Virus record (IMG/VR): IMGVR_UViG_3300007513_000031
Location: 1 to 64,000 of that record
DNA from: a virus
Direction: 5' to 3' (one strand)
Length of the DNA stretch: 64,000 nucleotides
The position numbers and the translations under genes are program-made. Of the stretch, positions 3,004-8,662 are shown piece after piece (within the stretch, counting starts at the first letter, position 1; each line of letters begins with the position of its first letter). The notes under the pieces were generated by a model, which worked only from the letters and a program-made list of their open reading frames with translations, did not search any database and had not been told where the DNA came from.

Positions 3004-3633
3004 ATGTCATTATATCTTAGAGAACACTTAACCTATGATCAGGCTAGAATGCAGATCTTGCACGAAGGTGAACAAGGCAAAGATTTGTACATGAAAGGAA
3101 TCTGTATTCAAGGAGGCATTAAAAATGCTAACGAAAGAGTTTATCCTGTTAATGAAATAGGAAAAGCAGTAAAAACTCTTAATGACCAGATAGGTTCTGG
3201 TTATTCAGTTCTCGGAGAAGTAGATCATCCAGACGATTTAAAGATTAATTTGGACCGTGTATCTCACATGATTACTGAAATGTGGATGGATGGACCAAAT
3301 GGATACGGCAAAATGAAAATTTTGCCAACACCGATGGGCCAACTTGTCAAAACAATGTTAGAATCAGGTGTGAAATTAGGCGTCAGTTCTCGTGGCTCTG
3401 GTAACATATCAGAGTACGGTAGCGGCGAAGTTTCAGACTTCGAAATCATAACAGTTGATGTTGTGGCCCAACCTTCGGCACCAGGGGCTTATCCTACGCC
3501 AATTTATGAACATCTTTTAAACACAAAAGGTGGATTAAAGGCAAAAGGACTGGCGGCTGAAGTTAGAAATGATGCAAAAGCCCAAAAGTACCTCAAAGAG
3601 GCGTTAACTAACATAATAAAGGACCTAAAATAA
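3004..3633 (+). CDS. 21: Prohead core protease gp21
   Basis: This 209-residue serine protease belongs to the T4 gp21 family, whose fold is shared with herpesvirus assemblins. It sits in the prohead core and cleaves scaffold, portal-associated and capsid proteins during maturation. The conserved catalytic His lies in GEVDHPDD (H75). The nucleophile Ser is in VSSRGSG (residues 127-133), followed by the DFEIITVDVVAQPSAP strand typical of the family. The length matches T4 gp21 (about 210 residues). It has a Shine-Dalgarno aaggagag, and the ATG of gp22 overlaps its stop by one base. Confidence 0.93.
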   Translation: MSLYLREHLTYDQARMQILHEGEQGKDLYMKGICIQGGIKNANERVYPVNEIGKAVKTLNDQIGSGYSVLGEVDHPDDLKINLDRVSHMITEMWMDGPNGYGKMKILPTPMGQLVKTMLESGVKLGVSSRGSGNISEYGSGEVSDFEIITVDVVAQPSAPGAYPTPIYEHLLNTKGGLKAKGLAAEVRNDAKAQKYLKEALTNIIKDLK

Positions 3634-4718: not shown

Positions 4719-5891
4719 ATGTCAGAAATATTTGAATCTAAATGGGCAGAAACTAAAACTGCTCTAACTGAAGGTTTAGCAGGCAACAAGAAAAAAACGA
4801 TGGATGTCATTTTAGAAAACACTAAAAGATATTTGTCAGAACAAGCTACTGCAGGTGCTACATCTGCTGGTAACGTTGCTACGTTAAACCGTGTGATCCT
4901 TCCAGTAATACGTAGGGTTATGCCTACTGTTATAGCGAACGAGATTGTTGGTGTACAACCAATGACTGGTCCGGTTGGACAGATCCACACACTAAGAATA
5001 AGATATGCAGACACAGTAAGTTCTAATACAACTGCTGGTGAAGAAGCATTATCTCCATTCAAAATAGCGAAAGCATACGCTGGTAACCAGAACAACACAA
5101 CTCCTAAAGGAGCATCAACAGCTTCATTAGAGGGTACGGCTGGTAAGAGATTATCAATTCAAATCTTGAAACAACCAGTTGAGGCGAAATCAAGAAAACT
5201 ATCTGCAAGATGGACTTTTGAAGCGGCTCAAGATGCTCAAGCACAACAAGGTATCGATGTAGAAGCAGAGATCATGGCGGCATTAGCTCAAGAAATTACG
5301 GCTGAGATTGACCAAGAGATCATCGGTTCATTAAGAACATTAGCTGGTTCAGCTTCTGAGACTTATGACCAAGCGGCTGTTTCTGGTACTGCAACTTTCG
5401 TTGGTGATGAACACGCGGCATTAGCTGTGTTAATCAACAGAGTAGCAAACCAAATCGCTACAAGAACTAGAAGAGGCGCTGGAAACTACGCAGTAGTATC
5501 TCCAACAGCTTTAACTATTCTTCAATCAGCAACAACTTCAGCATTTGCTAGATCAACTGAAGGTACTTTTGAAGCACCTACTAACACAAAATTTGTTGGT
5601 ACATTGAACGCTTCAATGAGAGTATACGTAGACGCATACGCGGCTGACGGTACTTCAGTACTAGTTGGTTACAAAGGTGCAAGTGAAGCAGACGCTCCGG
5701 CGTTCTACTGTCCTTACATTCCTTTAATGTCAAGTGGCGTTGTTCTTGATCCTGCAACTTTCGAACCAGTTGTTGGTTTCCTAACAAGATACGGTTATGT
5801 TGAATTAACAAACACTGCATCTTCACTAGGTAACGCGGCAGACTACGTTGGATTAGTAGCAGTAACAAGTGCTAACTTAAAATTTAAATAA
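4719..5891 (+). CDS. 23: Major capsid protein gp23
   Basis: This 390-residue protein has the gp23 signature block VIANEIVGVQPMTGPVGQ (around residues 73-90), matching the T4 sequence around IAFDIAGVQPMTGPTGQ. It is shorter than T4 gp23 (521), as in many marine T4-like phages. Gp23 is made as a precursor and its N-terminus is removed by gp21 after L/I-x-E. The best candidate here is L39-S40-E41 before a Gln/Ala/Gly-rich segment, with I31-L32-E33 a second possibility. The Shine-Dalgarno is aggggaag. Codon use is cleaner than in neighbours, fitting very high expression, and a strong terminator follows. Confidence 0.96.
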   Translation: MSEIFESKWAETKTALTEGLAGNKKKTMDVILENTKRYLSEQATAGATSAGNVATLNRVILPVIRRVMPTVIANEIVGVQPMTGPVGQIHTLRIRYADTVSSNTTAGEEALSPFKIAKAYAGNQNNTTPKGASTASLEGTAGKRLSIQILKQPVEAKSRKLSARWTFEAAQDAQAQQGIDVEAEIMAALAQEITAEIDQEIIGSLRTLAGSASETYDQAAVSGTATFVGDEHAALAVLINRVANQIATRTRRGAGNYAVVSPTALTILQSATTSAFARSTEGTFEAPTNTKFVGTLNASMRVYVDAYAADGTSVLVGYKGASEADAPAFYCPYIPLMSSGVVLDPATFEPVVGFLTRYGYVELTNTASSLGNAADYVGLVAVTSANLKFK

Positions 5892-5983: not shown

Positions 5984-6559
5984 ATGCATCACACATTTCA
6001 TCATATTCCAAAAACAGGTGGTAGCACAATAAGAATAAGACTTGAAGATCGTGCAGATAAAAAACAAATTAGTAAATTGAATTATGCTATTGGACATAAT
6101 ACCACTCACAGAACTCCAGGAATACATTTTACTTGGTTACGTAATCCTTTAGACAGAGATATATCACAGTTCAATTATGATATGTCAAAAGGAGAAGCAG
6201 AGGCAGACACATTTGAAAAACATTGTCAACTATTATCTGGTAATTTTATTACTTTATGGTTGCACAAGAATTATCTTTTACAAGATCCTAATGTAGATAT
6301 AAATTCAAAATATATAAATGTGCAACAATGTTTAAAAAATAATTTTCAAAAAGTTTTTTCTACAGAAAGTATTGAACAAAGCTGGAATGAAATTGCTAAC
6401 TTTTTGAAAATTGATAGAGAACCAAGACTAAACACAAACAGAAGTCATAGTGATTACAAAAAATACAGTGACAAAAAAAATTTAAGTAAAGAATTCCTTG
6501 AATGGCACAGGAATTATAACCACTATGATTATAAACTTTTTGAAGAGTTTTGTACGTAG
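5984..6559 (+). CDS. Sulfotransferase family protein
   Basis: This 191-residue protein opens with HHIPKTGGST (residues 6-15), the PAPS 5'-phosphosulfate-binding loop of the Sulfotransfer_2 type. WLRNPLDRDISQF (51-63) follows, corresponding to the 3'-phosphate-binding Arg/Ser block. It would transfer sulfate from PAPS to a glycan, lipid or protein. It sits alone between gp23 and small membrane-protein genes, with its own late promoter and no Shine-Dalgarno. Two further sulfotransferases lie in the accessory island (55885 and 60411). The acceptor cannot be read from sequence. Confidence 0.8.
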   Translation: MHHTFHHIPKTGGSTIRIRLEDRADKKQISKLNYAIGHNTTHRTPGIHFTWLRNPLDRDISQFNYDMSKGEAEADTFEKHCQLLSGNFITLWLHKNYLLQDPNVDINSKYINVQQCLKNNFQKVFSTESIEQSWNEIANFLKIDREPRLNTNRSHSDYKKYSDKKNLSKEFLEWHRNYNHYDYKLFEEFCT

Positions 6560-6679: not shown

Positions 6680-6913
6680 ATGGATATCATGATGAAAATA
6701 AAAGGATGGGCGAAAGGATTAGCTGATGTCGGTGTAAGTTTAATCGCATTAGGAATCGTTTTAGAAATTCTTTTCAGCGGTCAAGGTGTTCCGTTCTGGC
6801 CACATATTTCTGTAATAGGAAATGTCCAGGGCGTATTGCAAGGCTTTTCTGATCAAGGTTTGATTGGATTAGTAGCAGTTTGGATTTTATATCATATCTA
6901 CAATAGAAAATAA
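6680..6913 (+). CDS. Small integral membrane protein, two predicted TM segments
   Basis: The protein has 77 residues. A first hydrophobic helix lies at about residues 15-34 (ADVGVSLIALGIVLEILF) and a second at about 58-72 (GLIGLVAVWILYHI). They are joined by a Gly/Pro-containing loop, with basic ends. It has a strong Shine-Dalgarno aagggagg. Small two-TM proteins of this sort occur near the capsid genes of marine T4-like phages. A holin-like or membrane-altering role is possible, but no motif proves it. Confidence 0.6.
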   Translation: MDIMMKIKGWAKGLADVGVSLIALGIVLEILFSGQGVPFWPHISVIGNVQGVLQGFSDQGLIGLVAVWILYHIYNRK

Positions 6914-7142: not shown

Positions 7143-7184
7143 AAAAGGTCGATTAGTTTAGGATATTCGAAATTGACCTTTTTT
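7143..7184 (+). terminator. Intrinsic terminator
   Basis: A 12-bp stem with one G-U pair (7143-7154 with 7171-7182), a 16-nt loop and a T-run at 7179-7184. It ends the 36-residue microprotein transcript. Confidence 0.8.
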
Positions 7185-7211: not shown

Positions 7212-7219
7212 AATAAATA
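7212..7219 (+). promoter_or_regulatory. Late promoter motif AATAAATA
   Basis: Predicted to start a leader of nearly 100 nt that carries several hairpins before the ATG at 7322. Confidence 0.6.
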
Positions 7220-7236
7220 CACATAGTTCAAACGTG

Positions 7237-7314
7237 CTTTGACACAAAGTCAAAGACTTATGCGGATAACCACCGCGTAGCCAGGAGAACTGGCATTGGA
7301 CTCCTAAAAAGGAG
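7237..7314 (+). promoter_or_regulatory. Structured 5' leader with a possible Shine-Dalgarno switch
   Basis: Four stems are visible in order. Stem 1 is ctttgac/gtcaaag (7237-7243 with 7249-7255). Stem 2 is 7260-7265 with 7273-7278, core gcgg/ccgc. Stem 3 is gccag/ctggc (7280-7284 with 7290-7294). Stem 4 is ctcc/ggag (7301-7304 with 7311-7314). Stem 4 occludes the Shine-Dalgarno (aaggag, 7309-7314) of the gene at 7322. An alternative pairing of CTCC 7301-7304 with GGAG 7284-7287 would break stem 3 and free it. It matches no riboswitch class I can recall, so the regulatory role is inference. Confidence 0.5.
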
Positions 7315-7321
7315 AAAACAA

Positions 7322-7756
7322 ATGGGAAGACCTATCAAAAAAAGTAAAATGGCCAACACTTCAAGTGGCGCGGCAGGTAATATAGCTGTAACAGCTTATA
7401 GACCGTACGGTGGAGCAAAAGTTGATTCTACTACGGCTTATATAATATCACAAAGAGGATCTAAACTATTCAAGATTTCGTTAGAAGATTCTTCTAATGC
7501 TGTGTACCAATTGAAAGCAGTTGCACCAGGATCACTAGCTAATGATAACACTAGCTCATATGGTGAGTTCTGTGTACAGGTTATATTAAATGACTCAACA
7601 GTTGCATACGTTGAACGATTTTATAACAACACAATTCATTATGTGACTGCGGCAGGTGCGGCAGGTACTTGCACATATACATTAGGTGATGAAGGTACTG
7701 ATGAAGGACAAGCAGGATCAGGTGCTGGTTCCATTGACGTTATTACTGCACAGTAA
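7322..7756 (+). CDS. Putative virion structural protein (beta-rich, 144 residues)
   Basis: The protein begins MGRPIKKSKM and then runs as Gly/Ser/Thr/Ala-rich predicted beta strands with no catalytic motif. MGRP-type starts are familiar, from memory, in small structural proteins of marine T4-like phages. It heads the block of fibre and decoration genes and is closed by a terminator. Its long, folded leader is unusual among these genes. A decoration or fibre-associated role is inference. Confidence 0.55.
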   Translation: MGRPIKKSKMANTSSGAAGNIAVTAYRPYGGAKVDSTTAYIISQRGSKLFKISLEDSSNAVYQLKAVAPGSLANDNTSSYGEFCVQVILNDSTVAYVERFYNNTIHYVTAAGAAGTCTYTLGDEGTDEGQAGSGAGSIDVITAQ

Positions 7757-7780: not shown

Positions 7781-7810
7781 AGGGGGAGTTCAACGCTCCC
7801 CCTTTCTTTA
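7781..7810 (+). terminator. Intrinsic terminator
   Basis: An 8-bp GC-rich perfect stem, agggggag/ctccccct (7781-7788 with 7796-7803), has a 7-nt loop and a T-rich tail. A late promoter motif starts immediately after. Confidence 0.85.
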
Positions 7811-7818
7811 CATAAATA
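7811..7818 (+). promoter_or_regulatory. Late promoter motif CATAAATA
   Basis: It abuts the upstream terminator and ends 7 nt before the ATG at 7826. There is no Shine-Dalgarno, so a leaderless start is predicted. Confidence 0.65.
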
Positions 7819-7825
7819 ATAACAA

Positions 7826-8662
7826 ATGGCAAAGACTTTACGTACATCAGGTGATTATACAATAACAACAGGCACAGGTGCGAGTGGTTCAAATACTGTA
7901 TTTTTGGACTCAAAAACAACAAGAGTTCAAGGAGATTTAGTTGTTGACGGAACAAGAACAGAATTAAACACAGCAACAATGTCTATTGAAGACAAATTTA
8001 TAGAAGTTAACAGAGGTAACTCTACTGCAGATTCTGAAGATTCAGGAATATTTTTTAATAGAGGTACTTCAAACCATGGATTATTATATTGGGACGCAGG
8101 AGACGATGAATTCCAACTAGGTACATCAACAAATGCTCCATCAGTTACAGCAATTACAAATATGACATTAGGAAATTTGGCAATTGCAAGTCCTACACAA
8201 TCTGATCATGCCGCAACTAAAAGTTATGTAGATTCCACATCTGCTTCTACAATTAGAATTGCTGGCGATGACTCATCAATTATTACAACAGGTGGTTCAA
8301 CTGATACTCTACAATTATTGGGTGGAACAAATATTTCTAATACTACTGTGGTTGGTGCAGATTCAATTACATTTAATTTAAACAACGATTTAACAGGAAT
8401 AACATCAATAACATCAGATTCATCAAATGGTAATTTAACTTTAGCAACAAATGGTACTGGAGATGTAGTAATTAATGACACATTAACATTTTCGGCCGCG
8501 GCAAGTACTCCAACAGCAACATCAGTAACTAAAATTTACAATAAAACAGTAGGTGGAGGAGGTACTGGATTGTTTTTTATTAACTCAGCAGTTAGCTCAG
8601 GTACGGAAGGTGAACTGATAAGTAAGAGTAAGGCTACGGCTTTAGCGATAGCATTAGGATAA
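7826..8662 (+). CDS. Fibre/virion structural protein carrying the shared V-D-G-T module
   Basis: This 278-residue, Ser/Thr/Gly-rich, beta-strand protein has a module at about residues 35-100. The module runs GDLVVDGTRTELNTATMSIEDKFIEVNRG, then a FFNRG block, then LLYWDAGDDEFQLGT. It recurs in the proteins at 10399, 15366 and 17461, which shows common ancestry. Proteins with this module are typical tail-fibre or neck-fibre components of marine T4-like phages. A KSYVD-type motif follows, as in many fibre proteins. The exact place in the virion is unknown. Confidence 0.7.
   Translation: MAKTLRTSGDYTITTGTGASGSNTVFLDSKTTRVQGDLVVDGTRTELNTATMSIEDKFIEVNRGNSTADSEDSGIFFNRGTSNHGLLYWDAGDDEFQLGTSTNAPSVTAITNMTLGNLAIASPTQSDHAATKSYVDSTSASTIRIAGDDSSIITTGGSTDTLQLLGGTNISNTTVVGADSITFNLNNDLTGITSITSDSSNGNLTLATNGTGDVVINDTLTFSAAASTPTATSVTKIYNKTVGGGGTGLFFINSAVSSGTEGELISKSKATALAIALG

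Follow-up and report, generated by a model that had tools for sequence, protein, structure and literature searches.

A freshwater-2 RNA at the predicted start of a single late mRNA in uncultured T4-like phages

In an uncultured T4-like phage, the leader of a late gene is a genuine freshwater-2 RNA, a family without an assigned function that Rfam already lists (RF02980). The leader scored 80.6 bits against a gathering cut-off of 49.9 (E 9e-11), and it is the sole Rfam match at the curated cut-off in the window, by which we mean the whole 64-kb stretch of DNA that was analysed. An earlier note on this DNA had recognised no known riboswitch here, which is literally right, but the leader does belong to a known family. 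The motif is attributed to Weinberg et al. 2017 (NAR 45:10811). RF02980 is typed as Cis-reg in Rfam, and its model ends on the ATG at 7322-7324, as it does in relatives. The placement argues strongly that the leader acts in cis on its one downstream late gene. We favour, with a probability of about 0.5, a reading in which the second and third stems (P2 and P3) form a core that would be read by a macromolecule and would thereby control that gene. As far as checked, four points are new: which phages carry the RNA, which gene it precedes, that it begins exactly at the predicted +1, and how the fourth stem (P4) varies; the source paper may already state some of them.

Relatives were collected through the proteins as well as through the RNA. 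With the 144-aa product of the downstream gene as query we obtained 18 viral loci, one of which (L001) shares the window's exact sequence here, and the leader is present in all 18 of these loci picked solely by the protein. A scan for the P2 core returned 93 stretches, nearly all of them true leaders (the clear exceptions were six chance pattern matches), and revealed a second group with a different, longer downstream protein (MGRALKIQK..., about 256-280 aa). This second protein gave 80 loci, likewise picked by protein only, and the leader was found in 80 of 80. The compared set comprised 96 distinct promoter-to-ATG leaders from uncultured T4-like phages. Groups were named from the start of the protein, MGRP for the window's group and MGRAL for the other, the largest. 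When 14 diverse relatives were scanned, 13 of them also had an RF02980 match. Cultured phages gave no nucleotide match to the leader and no match to either downstream protein. Among the cultured phages closest by capsid protein, nine were searched as whole genomes (Phosso, 2.275.O, PA5oct, GAP32, Atu_ph07, RaK2, 121Q, SCTP-2 and XaC1); none had RF02980 above cut-off, and the weak scores there were at the level of control genomes. All 57 pattern matches from bacterial and archaeal genomes lacked the extended leader and are thus regarded as chance.

The 64-kb record derives from an uncultured T4-like phage, and the features used below are as follows.

3004-3633: prohead protease
4719-5891: major capsid protein (gp23), PHROG 138, E 6e-99
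7144-7184, plus strand: terminator-like hairpin (AAAGGTC...GACCTTT and a T run) just 5' of the late promoter, read directly
7212-7219, plus strand: T4-type late promoter AATAAATA, positions -13 to -6, read directly and conserved in relatives
7225-7231, plus strand: 5' arm of long-range helix P0, AGUUCAA, including the predicted +1, from information content and pairing counts
7237-7255, plus strand: hairpin P1, CUUUGAC/GUCAAAG, 7 bp, covarying
7238-7324, plus strand: RF02980 freshwater-2 match, model positions 1-84 of 84
7259-7279, plus strand: hairpin P2, UAUGCGG/CCGCGUA, 7 bp, with an invariant U-G wobble as third pair
7280-7294, plus strand: hairpin P3, GCCAG/CUGGC with loop GAGAA, 5 bp, covarying at 3-4 pairs
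7296-7302, plus strand: 3' arm of P0, UUGGACU, from the minimum free energy (MFE) fold and pairing counts
7301-7314, plus strand: hairpin P4, CUCCU-AAAA-AGGAG, with arms at 7301-7305 and 7310-7314 and the Shine-Dalgarno at 7311-7314
7322-7756, plus strand: the controlled gene, 144 aa (MGRPIKKSKM...), a probable virion protein by position and late promoter
7781-7803, plus strand: intrinsic terminator 3' of the 144-aa gene, from the terminator scan, conserved in relatives

Among the matches listed, the leader's gene lies mostly 1-3 kb 3' of the gp23 capsid gene, on the same strand, in contigs that reach that far. Exactly one copy of the leader was found in each of 14 contigs of 54-343 kb. Two further genes occupy the interval between capsid gene and leader. 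A sulfotransferase-like ORF at 5984-6559 (PHROG 3347, E 2e-4; IPKTGGST motif) occurs in many, not all, relatives with 33-84% identity among the matches listed. Just 5' of the leader unit, a small membrane-like protein of 77 aa (6680-6913), which matches no PHROG family, is strongly conserved at 50-90% identity among the matches listed.

T4 late promoters occupy -13 to -6 (PMC1524935), and that of phage S-PM2 reads NATAAATA (PMC2984593). With the T4 spacing, the promoter predicts a +1 at 7225 and hence a leader of 97 nt before the ATG at 7322. The earlier note had described this promoter as directly followed by four hairpins in 78 nt; they lie exactly at 7237-7314. Across 36 MGRP-group leaders, information content was 2 bits over TAAATA, 0.1-1.1 bits from -5 to -1, and 1.8-2.0 bits from +1 to +7. 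Conservation thus resumes precisely with the first base predicted to be transcribed, a pattern that selection on the RNA rather than on the DNA would produce. By its position relative to the promoter the leader should be part of the late mRNA, as the note had presumed. GC-rich counterparts of the upstream hairpin (for example GGGCGGTGT..CATCGCCCTTTT) stand at the same place in most relatives; the window's own hairpin was not picked up by the consensus terminator scan, whose loop limit is 8. Most relatives have terminator-like hairpins both 5' of the promoter and 3' of the gene, which suggests a late unit of a single gene.

The gene that follows (7826-8662) has a late promoter of its own, CATAAATA within 7811-7828, with a predicted +1 at 7824. 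Its 5' UTR would be just 2 nt and has no Shine-Dalgarno, which predicts a leaderless late mRNA, and about 30 distinct relatives retain the spacing of TAAATA, 6 to 10 nt and ATG. Directly 3' of the MGRAL gene in L031, L047, L025 and others, a terminator-like hairpin (for example ATCCTCCTTG..CAAGGAGGATTTTTT) reaches almost to the next ATG, so that its 3' arm also supplies the Shine-Dalgarno for the gene that begins there.

The transcript start also bears on a known T4 arrangement. In genes e, soc, 49 and I-TevI, a hairpin over the start site forms in early read-through transcripts and hides the start, and the late transcript is made without its 5' strand (PMC3014915). The window resembles these genes in phage type, in the place of its late promoter and in having its Shine-Dalgarno within a hairpin over the start site of a gene with a late promoter (PMC3014915). 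However, no strand of P0 to P4 lies before the predicted +1 at 7225; in contrast to the T4 cases, late transcripts would thus carry the complete structure, and the upstream terminators limit read-through. We regard a block of this type as very improbable.

The leader as a whole is strongly structured. Its MFE was -36.6 kcal/mol against a mean of -20.2 for shuffled sequences (z = -4.95), and none of 200 shuffles was as low, which bears out the four-stem leader that the note had drawn. P1 occurs as 38 distinct stems. In the window's subgroup its helix averaged 7.1 bp, against 4.5 when the arms were permuted; the MGRAL-group values were 5.1 and 2.9. P2 hardly varies: its third pair is a U-G wobble in every sequence, and only two inner pairs covary (GC/AU/UA and CG/GU). 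In P3, 3.89 of 4 pairs were formed versus 2.48 after permutation; its loop is UAGAA in most relatives and (U/G)AGAA-C almost throughout. Among 20 diverse MGRAL-group leaders, 400 of 400 cells paired, with 29 two-sided changes versus 6.8 in shuffles, and slid controls collapsed. Two-sided changes were seen at 9 of 20 predicted pairs in 31 MGRP-group leaders. The three-stem consensus of RF02980 is thus supported by compensatory changes. Covariation in stems 1-4, whose absence the note would have taken as a refutation, holds for stems 1-3 and is almost wanting in stem 4.

The window's leader shares with the freshwater-2 consensus the three stems, the conserved P2, the AGAAC loop and the AAGGAG...ATG, and differs from it in a 5' extension with helix P0 and in a stronger P4, both missing from the Rfam consensus. 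P0 is likely to form in the MGRP group, judging from pairing in the aligned sequences: 95.8% of cells are paired in the window's group. Alignment counts in that group gave no P0 covariation beyond shuffles, and the helix is absent from the MGRAL group, where P1 begins at +1 to +4 in most leaders; P0 was accordingly rejected as a conserved helix. In six MGRP-group members it is swapped for another long-range pairing, CAGAGC/GCUCUG, which would pull the anti-Shine-Dalgarno strand away. P0 and the three hairpins together have a cloverleaf look, and a tRNA-like element was considered and rejected, ARAGORN finding none in the window. A divergent member of the family (L008:3906-4003) scores below the Rfam cut-off and is useful for widening the model; it has no stem 4, and its Shine-Dalgarno follows directly after P3.

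The note had P4 hide the Shine-Dalgarno, and this holds in the window, where CUCCU faces AGGAG, but not as a property of the family. P4 is formable with at least 4 bp in 93 of the 96 leaders, through CUCCU, CUUCU or CUCUG, and its anti-Shine-Dalgarno strand is missing in the other three (L008, L138 and L144). Taken in isolation, P4 has an energy of -4.8 kcal/mol in the window but -1.1 in the MGRAL group. On the CUYCU strand most substitutions replace C by U and preserve the pairing; two-sided changes are nearly absent and none is convincing, the Shine-Dalgarno side being held by another constraint. The mean predicted probability that the Shine-Dalgarno is unpaired was 0.11 and 0.03 in two MGRP subgroups and 0.51 in the third, and mean predicted exposure was 0.42 for MGRAL-group leaders and 0.65 for those that lack stem 4. 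Since exposure varies among groups and P4 is weak or missing in some, covering of the Shine-Dalgarno is not the conserved property.

The central proposal of the note was an expression platform in which the CTCC at 7301-7304 would have two alternative partners, the Shine-Dalgarno (off) and the GGAG at 7284-7287 within P3 (on). The two segments are complementary as claimed, and both pairings exist in the window. The Rfam model is unpaired from the third stem to the Shine-Dalgarno, which places stem 4 and the proposed switch outside the described consensus. GGAG is present in P3 in only 17 of the 96 leaders. Of 31 close relatives, 16 cannot form the second of the four pairs in the GGAG/CTCC helix (63-81) and show no compensatory change, and the 31-sequence alignment holds no two-sided change anywhere in this helix. 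Forcing the pairing cost 6.6 kcal/mol in the window and 7.6 on average (range 5.2-9.2) in the 17 leaders that have it. A pseudoknot-like pairing of the P3 loop UAGAA with UUCUA on the same strand is possible in 41 MGRAL-group leaders and would speak for a switch; it stands in a different register, however, which makes it another helix. Where the UUCUA partner is absent or different, the P3 loop is unchanged, and it stays conserved in the three leaders that have no anti-Shine-Dalgarno strand. By these comparisons the CTCC/GGAG switch is not conserved, and we consider it improbable as the mechanism of the leader.

A ligand-binding riboswitch would fit the compact conserved core adjoining the Shine-Dalgarno and the Cis-reg typing of RF02980. 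No conserved, mutually exclusive expression platform was found across the leaders, however, and in the loci collected the RNA occurs only in phages, in one copy per contig, before one type of late structural-block gene. A metabolite sensor would be expected before varied genes, and no metabolic gene lies downstream. A ligand riboswitch is thus rated as slightly less probable still than the CTCC/GGAG switch.

The 144-aa product is probably a virion protein, as its late promoter and position suggest. Searches against PHROG, Pfam and PDB gave it no match above cut-offs. Its AlphaFold2 model is good and all-beta (pLDDT 83), and a fold search of the PDB gave nothing significant. In Foldseek its best viral match (E 9.5e-6) was to an uncharacterised protein from the Agrobacterium jumbo phage Atu_ph07; the capsid proteins of this phage and the window share 61% identity. 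The model of the MGRAL-type protein was poor (pLDDT 54). Homology of the two product types was considered and set aside: they do not align, profile comparison gave a probability of 4%, and since their shared Foldseek match, A0A6J5NZ42, is weak (E 0.11 and 1e-14), homology is not claimed. The N-terminus MGR(P/A)(I/L)K is common to both, so autoregulation through that end is conceivable. The nearby capsid gene is 72-96% identical among the matches listed while the downstream products diverge. Conservation of the RNA across products that do not align suggests that whatever reads it is unlikely to be the part of the product that diverges.

We weighed the macromolecule-read core against a constitutive role, in which hairpins at +1 would block 5'-end-dependent decay and favour the start region of a highly made late protein with no regulator. 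The leader of T7 gene 10, with a 5'-end hairpin on a late structural mRNA, works much like such a stabiliser and enhancer; it has no family relation to the window's leader, and far less sequence conservation is needed there. P1 at +1 to +4 in most MGRAL-group leaders and burial of the 5' end by P0 in the window's group would suit this role, as would a one-gene late unit. Yet a generic hairpin needs no near-invariant P2, invariant U-G pair or conserved P3 loop, and in the window's group P4 would mostly cover the Shine-Dalgarno (mean unpaired probability 0.03-0.11). Because macromolecular recognition is argued from sequence conservation, a role in stability or translation enhancement would leave much the same trace. 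We rank the macromolecule-read core ahead of the constitutive role, which we hold to be rather unlikely though the most serious of the alternatives.

According to the preferred reading, the 97-nt freshwater-2 leader would begin at the +1 of the T4-type late promoter and control its one late gene in cis. The RNA would fold while leaving the polymerase, with its 5' end buried in P0 in the window's group or directly in P1 in the other. The P2-P3 core, with its invariant U-G wobble and UAGAA or GAGAA loop, would then be recognised by a trans-acting macromolecule; a phage protein or the ribosome is the most likely reader, and it would set the translation or the lifetime of this late mRNA. P4 would be the output, tuned lineage by lineage: in the window's group it is strong, and elsewhere weak or absent. 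The operators of T4 genes 32 and 43, a model for protein-read control, are likewise structured leaders with a conserved core 5' of the start site (PMC3014915). The window's leader is not homologous to them by Rfam, and its gene belongs to the late structural block. A more specific version, in which a phage or assembly protein binds the core and a lineage-specific pairing (P0, CAGAGC/GCUCUG or UAGAA/UUCUA) competes with P4, seems unlikely, though less so than either switch. If true, such pairings would compete with the Shine-Dalgarno hairpin and tune the output of one virion gene to assembly.

The comparison also shows that a plausible switch read from a single sequence can fail across its family. 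Freshwater-2, hitherto an orphan motif, is now placed where one late mRNA of widespread uncultured T4-like phages is predicted to begin, and this raises the testable question of what reads a leader that is more conserved than the protein encoded downstream of it.
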